Source of the DNA: Loktanella sp. 3ANDIMAR09
GTDB taxonomy: Bacteria; Pseudomonadota; Alphaproteobacteria; Rhodobacterales; Rhodobacteraceae
DNA: 64,000 bases
Assembly: GCF_001420005.1 (NCBI RefSeq)
Contig: NZ_LJAK01000007.1
Coordinates: forward strand, 1-64,000
Reading direction: 5' to 3'
A model generated the notes under the pieces. The model was not told where the DNA came from, ran no database searches, and saw only the letters and a program-made list of their open reading frames with translations. The translations under genes and the position numbers were made by a program. Below are positions 58,863 through 62,862 of the stretch, one piece after another (the stretch's first letter is position 1; each line of letters starts with the position of its first letter).

Positions 58863-59723
58863 TCAGTCGCGCAGGCGTTTGAGCAGGCTTGATGTGTCCC
58901 ATCGGCCGCCGCCCATTTTCTGAACGTCCTTGTAGAACTGATCGACGAGCGCGGTGACAGGCAGGCTGGCACCGATGGCATTGGCGTTTTCCAGCACGAT
59001 GCCCAGATCCTTGCGCATCCAGTCCACGGCGAACCCGTGGTCGTAATGGTCGGCAAGCATGGTTTTGTAGCGGTTTTGCATCTGCCAGGACCCGGCGGCA
59101 CCCTGGCTGATGACCTCGACCACGGCTTCGCCGTCGAGGCCAGCCTTTTGCGCGAAATGCAGCGCCTCTGACAGGCCCTGGACGAGGCCCGCGATGGCGA
59201 TCTGGTTGCACATCTTGGTGGTCTGGCCTGCGCCGGATGGGCCGATGCGACGGCAGAGCTTGGCGTAAATGTTCATGACGGGTTCGGCGCGGTCATAGGC
59301 GTCCTGGTCGCCGCCGCACATGATGGACAGCTGGCCGTTTTCGGCCCCGGCCTGCCCGCCACTGATGGGCGCGTCGACAAAGTGGAGGCCGCTTGTCTGT
59401 GCCGCGTCATAGAGTTCGCGGGTGACGGCGGCGCTGACCGTGGTGTGGTCGACAAAGAGTGCGCCGTCCTTCATCCCGTGGAACGCGCCGCCCGCGCCCG
59501 TGGTGACGCCGCGCAGGTCGTCGTCGTTACCCACACAGGCAAAGACGATATCCGCCCCCTGTGCCGCCTGTTCGGGCGTGGAGGCCATGGTGCCGCCATG
59601 TTCCGCGACCCAGGCCTCGGCCTTGGAGGCGGTGCGGTTGTAGACGGTGACGTCGTGGTGCTTGGCGAGGTGGCCGGCCATAGGGTAGCCCATGACGCCG
59701 AGGCCGAGGAAGGTGATGTTCAT
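58863..59723 (-). CDS. NAD(P)-dependent beta-hydroxyacid dehydrogenase (HIBADH family)
   Basis: A 286-aa oxidoreductase of the 3-hydroxyisobutyrate/tartronate semialdehyde dehydrogenase family: ITFLGLGVMGYPMAGHLAK (NAD binding), FVDAPISGGQAGAENG (substrate loop, about residue 117), and GAGQTTKMCNQI with the catalytic Lys (about residue 170). The substrate cannot be fixed. The repeat copy at 58807-58859 lies just after its stop, and the AT-rich cargo gene lies upstream. Confidence 0.93.
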   Translation of the reverse strand: MNITFLGLGVMGYPMAGHLAKHHDVTVYNRTASKAEAWVAEHGGTMASTPEQAAQGADIVFACVGNDDDLRGVTTGAGGAFHGMKDGALFVDHTTVSAAVTRELYDAAQTSGLHFVDAPISGGQAGAENGQLSIMCGGDQDAYDRAEPVMNIYAKLCRRIGPSGAGQTTKMCNQIAIAGLVQGLSEALHFAQKAGLDGEAVVEVISQGAAGSWQMQNRYKTMLADHYDHGFAVDWMRKDLGIVLENANAIGASLPVTALVDQFYKDVQKMGGGRWDTSSLLKRLRD

Positions 59724-59753
59724 GTGCTTATCCTGCGGTTACAAAAGAAAGAA

Positions 59754-59777
59754 CTTTAGTAATGAAAGCCACTAAAG
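59754..59777 (-). terminator. AT-rich terminator for the cargo gene
   Basis: CTTTAGT and ACTAAAG arms with a 10-nt loop form a perfect 7-bp stem. Read on the minus strand it is followed by TTCTTTCTTTT, a good U-tract. It sits beyond the stop of the AT-rich gene. Confidence 0.65.
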
Positions 59778-59781
59778 TAAT

Positions 59782-60927
59782 TTAACTATTTAAACTTTGC
59801 CGATCAAAATACCAGTTCACAGGGCTATCCGAGCTACTTGGATCATCCAATGCCTGCCTGATTTGGTTTGAAATTTCAGACCTCCAAAGTTCTAGTTTAG
59901 GAGTCCATGTGTATATGTCCGTATTATCTATTGGAATAGTCCGCAATTGATTGACGTCAAATGGTATATTATCAGATTTCTGAATTATTTGAACCACCGG
60001 CTTTCGCACCATATGCCTTATCGCAAGTTCGTAGAAGACATTAGGATTATGAAAAGATAAATCCGCAATAACAAGACGTGCCTCAACAAGATACTGTATT
60101 ACTTGTTTTGTGATTACGCCCGGTTTATCAATCTGATCTGCCCTAACAACCTTAAGTCCAAACCTCTCAACAGCTGGCTCTATCAGAGTGTTCAGAAATA
60201 GGTCAGAGTGCTTCCTTTGAACCGAACCATCAGAGCCGATTGGAGTGACGTAAAAAGCCGTAGTTTCTAACGCAGCCTGTCCACTAGTAATCGGCGGAGC
60301 GAATGTCGCGGGACTAGTGGGTCGGCTAGTATCGGACTGAAAACTAGGGTCGGAAACAACTCCATCAGCCAAATGCTCTTTTGAAACTATTCTCTCAGCA
60401 CCGCTAAGCGTCTGAAGCAAATTTACCTCTTGCATATTTTCCAAAAATATATCAACAGCTTGCTCCGCAATTTCTCTATCTATATCAAATTCTTGAACGG
60501 CATCTACCAAAACTGACTTAGCAGGTAATTTATTACCCTTAAATTTTTCGTAAAGTCCCAAAAACGCTGGTATTGTCGAAATTGCACAATCAACTTTAGC
60601 AATTGCTCTTACTTTTGGATCGAATCCATCATCTACCACCTTGCGTCCATCTTCGGTAAGTTCAATGAACTCCGCTGAGGCGCTGCCTTTCGTCAAGCCA
60701 TATTTGGAGGAAGCTGAGACAAGAGACCTGCTCGGACCGCTTTCCGGAGCCTTGCCAATTGCATCGAATAGGGTGAGCCGCCTAACTGGCTGCCCTGCGC
60801 CAGTTCGAAAGAGCGCCTCTGCGAATGCCCTTGGCTGATCGAATGGTATCGTAGGGAATGAGACGACGCGGCGCTTCCTCTCACCCTTCTTTTCGGAACC
60901 GATCCCATCTTTATTTTTGGCAGACAT
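59782..60927 (-). CDS. AT-rich cargo protein with C-terminal nucleoside-deoxyribosyltransferase/TIR-like domain
   Basis: A 381-aa protein of no named family. Residues about 20-110 (PTIPFDQPRAFAEALF, LTLFDAIGKAPESGPSRSLV) look like a winged-helix module, followed by an alpha-helical linker. The C-terminal part from about residue 230 contains FYVTPIGSDGSVQRKHSD, VVRADQIDKPG, ARLVIADLSFHNPNVFYELAIRH and KPVVQII. This VIADLxxxNPNVFYELxxxH pattern is that of NDT-like and TIR-like nucleotide-handling domains in many anti-phage proteins. The gene is visibly AT-rich against GC-rich neighbours (HIBADH and lepA), and is flanked by its own promoter and terminator, so transfer is likely. AAGGGAG precedes ATG at 60927. 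Confidence 0.75.
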   Translation of the reverse strand: MSAKNKDGIGSEKKGERKRRVVSFPTIPFDQPRAFAEALFRTGAGQPVRRLTLFDAIGKAPESGPSRSLVSASSKYGLTKGSASAEFIELTEDGRKVVDDGFDPKVRAIAKVDCAISTIPAFLGLYEKFKGNKLPAKSVLVDAVQEFDIDREIAEQAVDIFLENMQEVNLLQTLSGAERIVSKEHLADGVVSDPSFQSDTSRPTSPATFAPPITSGQAALETTAFYVTPIGSDGSVQRKHSDLFLNTLIEPAVERFGLKVVRADQIDKPGVITKQVIQYLVEARLVIADLSFHNPNVFYELAIRHMVRKPVVQIIQKSDNIPFDVNQLRTIPIDNTDIYTWTPKLELWRSEISNQIRQALDDPSSSDSPVNWYFDRQSLNS

Positions 60928-61062
60928 AGACAACTCCCTTATGCTTGAAGAGAGTGAAACACTTCGTTGACATAACATCAACGCCTAGAACCGCTATCAG
61001 GTGCCGGCCGCGATTGGCTGCGCCATTCGCTTTCCCGCACTCGCTCTTAAAATGGTCAGCTT

Positions 61063-62862
61063 TCAGCTGTCCATCTTCAGCGCCGAAATAAACGCTTCCT
61101 GCGGAATATCCACCTTCCCGAACTGGCGCATCTTCTTCTTACCCGCCTTCTGCTTGTCCAGCAGCTTGCGCTTGCGCGAGGCGTCGCCGCCGTAGCATTT
61201 GGCCGTCACGTCCTTGCGCAGGGCGGACAGGGTTTCCCGTGCGATGACCTTGCCGCCGATGGCCGCCTGGATCGGGATCTTGAACATGTGGCGGGGGATC
61301 AGGTCCTTGAGCTTTTCCACCATCGCGCGGCCGCGCATTTCGGCCCGGTCGCGGTGGACCATCATGGACAGCGCGTCCACGGGTTCGTCGTTCACCAGCA
61401 CCGACATCTTGACCAGGTTGTCCTGCTGATAGCCGGTCATGGCATAGTCGAATGACGCGTAGCCCTTGGTCACGGATTTCAGGCGGTCGTAGAAATCGAA
61501 CACCACCTCGTTCAGCGGCAGGTCATAGACGACCATCGCGCGGGTGCCCGCATAGGTCAGGTCCAGCTGCACGCCGCGGCGGTCCTGGCACAGTTTCAGC
61601 ACGTCGCCCAGGTATTCGTCGGGCACGAGGATCGTCGCCTTGATCCGCGGTTCCTCCACATGGTCGACGTGGGTCAGGTCGGGCATGTCGGCAGGGTTAT
61701 GCAGATCATGCATCGTCCCGTCCTTCATGTAGACGTGATAGACGACCGAAGGGGCGGTGGTGATCAGGTCGATGTTGTATTCCCGCTCGATCCGGTCGCG
61801 GATGACCTCGAGGTGCAACAGTCCGAGAAAGCCGCAGCGGAAACCAAAGCCCAGCGCGGCAGAGGTTTCCATCTCGAAGCTGAAGCTCGCGTCGTTCAGG
61901 GCCAGTTTGTCGATGGCGTTGCGCAGGTCCTCGAATTCGGACGAATCCACCGGGAACAGACCGCAGAACACGACAGGTTGCGCGGGTTTGAAGCCGGGCA
62001 GCGGTGCGTCGGTGCCCTTGCGTTCGTTGGTGATCGTGTCACCGACGCGGGTGTCGCGCACCTCTTTGATCTGGGCGGTGAAAAAGCCGATTTCGCCGGG
62101 TCCCAGCTCGTCGACGGGCAGCATGCCGGGTTTGAACACGCCCAGACGGTCGATCAGGTGGACGGTGTCGTTCTGCATGAACCGCACGCGGTCCTTGACC
62201 TTGATCGTGCCGTCGATGACGCGGATCAGCACGACCACGCCAAGGTAGGCGTCATACCAGCTGTCCACCAGCATCGCCTTGAGCGGGGCCGCGCGGTCGC
62301 CCTTGGGGGCGGGCAGCTTGTGCACGATCGCCTCGAGCGTTTCCTTGATCCCGACGCCGGTCTTGGCGCTGACGCGGATCGCCTCGCTTGCGTCGATACC
62401 GATCACGTCCTCGATCTGTTCGGCCACGCGGTCGCATTCGGATGCGGGCAGGTCGATCTTGTTCAGGACGGGCACGATCTCGTGGTCGGCCTCGATGGCG
62501 TGATAGACATTGGCGAGGGTCTGCGCCTCGACGCCTTGGGTGCTGTCGACGACCAGCAACGATCCTTCGACCGCGCGCATGGACCGAGACACCTCGTAGG
62601 CGAAATCGACGTGACCGGGGGTGTCGATCAGGTTCAGGACGTAGGTTTCGCCGTTGTCGGCGGTATAGTCGATCCGCACGGTCTGGGCCTTGATGGTGAT
62701 GCCGCGCTCACGCTCGATATCCATGCTGTCCAGCATCTGCGCCTTCATGTCGCGGTCGGCGACGGTGCCGGTGGACTGGATCAACCGGTCGGCCAGGGTC
62801 GATTTCCCGTGGTCGATATGTGCCACGATCGAGAAATTGCGGATATGCGAGAGTTCGGTCAT
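61063..62862 (-). CDS. lepA: elongation factor 4 (LepA)
   Basis: LepA is a translational GTPase. The 599-aa protein has [14 protein letters not shown] (G1), [12 protein letters not shown] (G3), NKIDLPASE (G4), and the C-terminal LepA-specific domain ([17 protein letters not shown]). Length is standard. It stands alone, 135 bp from the AT-rich gene upstream on the map. Confidence 0.97.

Follow-up and report, generated by a model that had tools for sequence, protein, structure and literature searches.

A lone AT-rich gene of Loktanella sp. 3ANDIMAR09 encodes a predicted winged-helix and NDT/TIR-like protein, a candidate single-gene anti-phage factor

The window analyzed here, a stretch of 64,000 nucleotides of Loktanella sp. 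3ANDIMAR09 DNA, contains a real, foreign-looking gene that we regard as a single-gene candidate defence factor, and its product as a candidate new family within the known TIR/NDT-like sensor-effectors. The protein, which fits no Pfam or NCBIfam model, is predicted to join an N-terminal tandem winged-helix half to a C-terminal NDT/TIR-like domain with an invariant glutamate at its presumed active site.

The gene (59782..60927, minus strand) was delimited by its open reading frame and translation together with 45 full-length relatives; it encodes 381 amino acids, with an ATG start at 60927 and a stop codon whose last base is 59782. A ribosome-binding site, AAGGGAG, is located 6 nt 5′ of the ATG, and an alternative TTG start at 60981 is also open and would give 399 amino acids. 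The GC content is 0.442, compared with 0.621 for the remaining window, and only 3 of 1258 sliding windows (starts 59651, 59701, and 59751), all of which overlap the gene, are as GC-poor. The gene stands alone between lepA (61063-62862; its product is 84% identical to a protein of locus L009 that Pfam names LepA) and a gene at 58863-59723 that, by eye, resembles those for 3-hydroxyisobutyrate dehydrogenase, which agrees with the preliminary description of an AT-rich gene within a GC-rich housekeeping context. The gap between lepA and the gene (60928..61062, minus strand) contains, besides the AAGGGAG site, a single inverted repeat of 6 bp (60965-60983). Because this repeat is present in only 1 of 44 upstream regions, we claim no regulatory role for it, and a conserved operator upstream of the gene was rejected. 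RNA from the 80 bases that directly follow lepA folded no better than shuffled sequences. On the 3′ side, a weak AT-rich hairpin of 10 bp followed by U-rich sequence (59734..59781, minus strand; -8 kcal/mol, z -1.56) was not called by the terminator scan, and 14 of 200 shuffles folded equally well; a strong terminator was not found, and the terminator of its own that had been proposed for the gene is not supported. At the other end of the window, an AT-rich pair on the minus strand (153-2892; GC about 0.44-0.51 per kb), in which a C5-cytosine-methyltransferase-like ORF (1789-2892) is followed by a GHKL-ATPase-like ORF (153-1811), both assigned by eye, resembles a further defence module.

Relatives were collected by scanning genome_contigs with six short patterns, which gave 60 loci, and IMG/VR, which gave 2 loci, both full-length copies on viral-database contigs. 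Of these 62 loci, 45 with a usable start form the full-length set (46 sequences including the window protein); 15 that were truncated, interrupted, or restricted to the C-terminal domain and 2 without a start (L026 and L057) were left out. The full-length relatives share 33-53% identity with the window protein as well as its two-domain layout. By label, they fall into nine phyla (Pseudomonadota, Acidobacteriota, Planctomycetota, Actinomycetota, Bacillota, Bacteroidota, Cyanobacteriota, Gemmatimonadota, and Thermoplasmatota), and several stem from metagenome bins. Their tree is largely phylum-coherent, with 10 label changes against a possible minimum of 8, and does not require promiscuous transfer between phyla. 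At two loci (L016 and L054), the tblastn match spans the protein and the open frame is interrupted, possibly reflecting decayed copies or assembly errors.

Sequence searches with the window protein returned little. Pfam gave PqqD alone, below the cut-off (E = 0.017), and NCBIfam gave two matches far under the cut-off (E = 0.13 and 0.16). In the PDB, sequence relatives over the full protein were rejected, as the sole match had E = 1 and the family profile had none. Matches to PF05014 (Nuc_deoxyrib_tr), to Pfam TIR and TIR_2, and to DUF4062 were absent both in the window protein (E ≤ 10) and in the 46 members (E ≤ 1), and membership in the Pfam NDT, TIR, or DUF4062 families was accordingly rejected. 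By contrast with these Pfam results, one PADLOC model, “Effector TIR” (PDLC00733), matched residues 238-330 of the window protein (E = 1.3e-7) and all 46 members at E ≤ 1 (best 1.2e-12). The string NPNVFYEL had zero occurrences in open-licence papers, none of the titles and abstract openings listed in searches of the open-licence literature named the combination of a winged helix with an NDT/TIR-like domain, and the terms winged, TIR, NADase, standalone, and single-gene did not occur in the DefensePredictor paper.

The N-terminal domain (about residues 18-196; 60340..60876, minus strand) was read as a tandem winged helix from AlphaFold and Foldseek. Modelled alone, it reached a pLDDT of 93.8, and its helices and wings look like two winged-helix units. 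In both this model and that of the full protein, the secondary structure, read by eye, fits the winged-helix-like module of the preliminary description. A Foldseek search with this domain returned nothing at E ≤ 0.001, and a relationship to a solved winged-helix family was rejected; the top five matches were four to the DNA-recognition domain of BpuJI (best E = 0.017) and one to SelB, followed by winged helices of methyltransferases. The tandem winged-helix half is probably the sensor. Four proteins (L006, L007, L098, and L099) match the N-terminal domain only and do not match the enzyme half. The linker that follows (about residues 196-222; 60262..60342, minus strand) is variable and partly disordered, with pLDDT below 50 at residues 196-211 and a length that varies in the family alignment.

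The C-terminal NDT/TIR-like domain (about residues 223-378; 59794..60261, minus strand) was delimited by Foldseek and by the PADLOC “Effector TIR” model. The full-length AlphaFold model has a mean pLDDT of 88 and a pTM of 0.54, so the mutual placing of the two halves in it is uncertain. When this model was compared with the PDB by Foldseek, all of the 50 matches listed were NDT-superfamily enzymes; MilB was the best (E = 3.2e-4), 9 matches had E ≤ 0.001, and the others included DNPH1/Rcl, CtNDT, and BcmB. The C-terminal half is predicted to adopt the Rossmannoid fold of the nucleoside deoxyribosyltransferase (NDT) superfamily. The C-terminal domain profile found 11 PDB sequences at E ≤ 10, all of them DNPH1/Rcl (best E = 0.019), and this weak alignment sets NPNVFYE on the VGYE stretch of DNPH1 and Glu300 on the glutamate of the DNPH1/Rcl YEL motif. 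Glu300 (codon 60028..60030, minus strand), the predicted catalytic nucleophile within NPNVFYE, is invariant in 46 of 46 sequences, and many polar residues around it are invariant across phyla. The motif VIADLSFHNPNVFYELAIRH, from which the domain had originally been recognized, is indeed present with a core invariant among relatives, and the presumed catalytic glutamate is retained in the alignment.

Two further positions bear on the chemistry. Phe225 (codon 60253..60255, minus strand) takes the place of the NDT/DNPH1 tyrosine and is Phe in 46 of 46 sequences; residue 276, which is aligned to the acid aspartate of NDT enzymes, is aliphatic in all 46 (27 Ile, 18 Val, and 1 Leu). Both placings come from a weak hhalign alignment (E = 0.011, probability 3.9%) with an NDT-family protein encoded in a related genome, in which the tyrosine and the aspartate were identified by our own reading; the alignment with a second NDT protein (E = 0.17) was short of the first strand. 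On this weak alignment, the classical deoxyribosyl tyrosine and acid aspartate are absent throughout the family. Passages of PMC10603095 give the DNPH1 triad as Y24, D80, and E104 and state that Phe replaces Y24 in the ribose-using MilB, and according to a passage of PMC11204291 Phe or Ala is usual at the NDT-tyrosine place in NADase TIRs. The nucleophile is thus kept and the marks of a deoxynucleotide enzyme are seemingly lost. The window family resembles MilB and DNPH1 (Rcl) in its predicted fold, its catalytic glutamate, and, for MilB, the Phe at the ribose-permitting place, but differs in having an aliphatic residue for the acid aspartate, an extra winged-helix half, and no metabolic context. 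Judged from these residues, the C-terminal domain family looks like a ribose-using, TIR-like enzyme. We predict that, with the active-site correspondence to NDT enzymes proposed here, it is a glycohydrolase of NAD+ or of another ribonucleotide, NAD+ being the likeliest substrate by analogy.

The gene is rare among close relatives of the host. Of 394 genomes from the bacterial family, 3, the host's among them, were matched strongly by the N-terminal domain profile; among 398 genomes of the phylum this profile found only the host copy and two weak matches, and none of the 8 other genomes of the genus had a match at E ≤ 1e-5. A housekeeping gene of the group, the reading that would have counted against a defence factor, was rejected on the 3 of 394 family genomes. 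A GC content below that of the flanks is general in the family: it was found in 44 of 44 loci, by more than 0.05 in 38 of them (44 of the 45 full-length loci were compared; L038 was left out because its flank was too short). The alignment, the structure models, the genus comparison, and the neighbourhood analysis together back the two-domain architecture, the reading of the gene as an AT-rich single-gene insertion, and the lack of a recurrent partner.

The neighbourhoods comprised 355 ORFs from 54 loci, predicted by a crude ORF caller, so that some of these ORFs are not genes; 140 of them were scanned. No recurrent partner gene was found among the 355 ORFs, and the largest cluster has five members from four loci, which are oxidoreductases by eye. 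The 140 scanned neighbours include 5 phage integrases and 2 terminases; the latter lie most likely beside L011 and L069, loci that carry identical copies of the winged-helix/NDT protein, and may therefore be one case. PADLOC matched 33 families among the 140 neighbours (raw counts), with a single member in each of the 25 families listed; the models matched by a single neighbour include mad3, mad8, PrimPol, AriA, ThsC, AbiLi, and PtuA, and some of the matches, such as RtcR and control proteins, are likely housekeeping look-alikes. Many carrier loci are surrounded by housekeeping genes.

The C-terminal domain also occurs apart from the winged-helix half. Homologues were found in 40 phage records, none of which covers 80% of the query; the 20 matches listed are to the C-terminal domain only and are 37-40% identical. 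In Staphylococcus phage SA75, the homologue stands alone and in reverse orientation inside the replication module, and in the Streptococcus phage Javan527 it lies in the lysogeny module, close to the repressor and the integrase. A 2022 survey includes a passage on a distinct TIR version in Staphylococcus, Streptococcus, and Clostridium phages (PMC9503650), which is perhaps the same C-terminal domain; the window protein differs from these phage proteins, as far as the 20 matches listed go, in its added winged-helix half. Matches were also found in 85 plasmid records, the 30 listed all falling in the C-terminal domain and none covering over 80% of the protein. On the Salinibacter ruber plasmid pSR61, the C-terminal domain gene adjoins an integrase, with an Abi-alpha family gene close by. 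In four loci of other bacteria (L063, L065, L066, and L067), the same NDT-like domain is, as judged by eye, fused with PLD-like, macro-like, and HEAT-like parts. Another contig of the host genome carries a second NDT-like ORF (370 aa), near which a SLATT-like membrane ORF and a resolvase-like ORF were identified by eye.

The region after lepA (59724-61062 in the window) is an apparent insertion hotspot across the bacterial family (loci L104-L133). Six other genomes of the genus have lepA and the dehydrogenase gene on one stretch, separated by gaps of 1.0-2.4 kb that hold other low-GC genes; in the two remaining genomes the contig ends before lepA. One gap contains GmrSD_N with HEPN_MAE_28990 (PADLOC NsnA, 8e-46); the other cargo consists of DUF4747 with a small ORF, one protein common to two genomes, and two others without a Pfam match. 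Among the nine genus slot proteins scanned, PADLOC matched one and Pfam four, one of the latter being a PhnA-type YjdM. Across the bacterial family, GC dropped by more than 0.10 within 1.4 kb after lepA in 17 of 30 genomes and after recA in 0 of 29 (Fisher p = 6e-7; Mann-Whitney p = 0.008), where the two sets are different genomes, the lepA set being the best-scoring 30 of 55 genomes with a match, including the host, and the recA set the best 30 of 61 with one dropped for its short end. Of ten slot ORFs, taken from 10 of the 14 family loci listed, 3 had a PADLOC match (E ≤ 0.01) and 4 a Pfam match above the cut-off, namely AAA plus TIR_2, SocA-Panacea, HARE-HTH, and HTH_3. Most of the scanned slot proteins, in the genus as in the family, had no defence match. 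In one family genome (G084), a different NDT-domain protein occupies the same slot. As for the relatives of the window protein, lepA lies within the flank covered at 2 of the 62 loci, directly in front of the homologue on a Rhodobacter MAG contig (L009) and about 2 kb away at L026; the other 60 show none.

The Retron-Eco1 effector is an NDT-like enzyme fused to a winged helix, with the domain order reversed relative to the window protein. PMC12548924 and PMC12887533 describe retron systems that include NDT-like effectors and winged-helix genes, and the window protein might serve such a system in the Retron-Eco1 manner, with the reverse transcriptase encoded elsewhere. A search of 20 carrier genomes, drawn from the 62 loci and of unstated completeness, largely refuted this reading: the host genome and 10 of 20 carrier genomes had no RVT_1 match, and a motif scan of the 54 loci, which is of low sensitivity, gave no convincing reverse transcriptase by eye. 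We hold a retron-type effector to be extremely improbable. Hardly more credit is due to a CBASS-like effector that would respond to the cyclic nucleotide product of a CD-NTase. In its favour, the PADLOC match is to an “Effector TIR” model, which may derive from CBASS, and the host genome has one SMODS gene; but this gene is on another contig, none adjoins the host locus, the genomic neighbourhoods offer no recurrent candidate, and 16 of 20 other carrier genomes lack a match to SMODS, the one family of CD-NTases searched, on which count the CBASS reading was rejected. The carriers free of RVT_1 and of SMODS indicate that neither a retron nor a CBASS partner is needed.

The protein could also be a DNA-binding regulator of nearby genes, with an NDT-like domain that would serve as a catalytically dead sensor of a ligand, given its predicted winged helices and the nucleotide binding described in PMC9503650 for inactive members of the TIR-DrHyd-SLOG clade. 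The invariance of Glu300 and its polar surroundings across phyla, the lack of a recurrent neighbour to control, and the near absence elsewhere of the palindrome upstream of the window gene all speak against such a regulator, which appears unlikely. A smaller doubt attaches to the same architecture with other chemistry, in which the C-terminal domain would hydrolyse other nucleotides or make a signal, such as a cyclic ADP-ribose variant, for a separate effector; this has a minor yet appreciable chance. Superfamily members are stated in PMC9503650 to act on many nucleotides or to make cADPR, and the closest folds in Foldseek are CMP and dNMP N-glycosidases. The exchange of Tyr for Phe and the apparent loss of the acid Asp, however, argue against deoxynucleotide specificity, and the 54 loci hold no recurrent neighbour fit to be the receiver of a signal.

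The closest functional analogue is Swarozyc. A passage of PMC13174449 describes KpSwz as a DUF4062 TIR-like NADase in which binding of the phage portal by an HTH/winged domain leads to NAD+ loss. Going by PMC13174449, the likeness lies in the one-gene format, the TIR/NDT-like enzyme with a catalytic glutamate, the HTH/winged auxiliary domain, and the patchy distribution; as a likeness in kind of parts, it depends on the predicted fold of the window protein. The enzyme domain is last in the window protein and first in Swarozyc. By analogy, the window protein may act like Swarozyc; on present evidence it is no member of Swarozyc.

We favour, with moderate confidence, a self-contained one-gene anti-phage factor of the abortive-infection type, Swarozyc-like in action and within a new family. 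The tandem winged-helix half would recognize a phage-derived trigger, either nucleic acid or protein; recognition would bring C-terminal domains together; the assembled domains would use Glu300 to cleave the N-glycosidic bond in NAD+ or a different ribonucleotide; and the infected cell would then no longer support the phage. We infer the trigger, the activation by assembly, NAD+ as the substrate, and the abortive outcome, while the putative defence role and NADase activity are motivated by context and by the active-site pattern. The anti-phage reading draws on the NDT fold, the invariant Glu300, Phe225 with the aliphatic residue 276, and the TIR-effector match in every member, and likewise on the low GC content, the rarity, the integrases, the defence-model neighbours, the lepA-slot genes, the phage homologues of the C-terminal domain, and the Swarozyc analogue. 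Counted against it are the weak placing of residues 225 and 276, the housekeeping settings, the single PADLOC neighbour matches, the few defence matches in the slot, the scarcity of lepA at relatives' loci, the phylum-coherent tree, and the uncertain domain orientation.

A broader proposal, which we put forward tentatively and hold at somewhat short of even confidence, is that these proteins constitute a new one-protein immune-receptor family over many phyla, in which tandem winged helices would themselves detect nucleic acid or a protein of the phage, and a TIR-like domain derived from NDT would then destroy NAD+. Its genes would travel as lone AT-rich cargo and, in the bacterial family of the host, occupy a slot behind lepA that has taken up many unrelated genes, some of them of defence type, with no recombinase evident. 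If this is true, a widely distributed family that neither Pfam nor NCBIfam models would provide a compact sensor-effector open to testing, and further defence genes that island-based searches may miss could be sought in the lepA slot. The family would also be a natural test, within the TIR-NDT clade, of the Tyr/Phe and Asp rule that divides deoxynucleotide enzymes from NADases.
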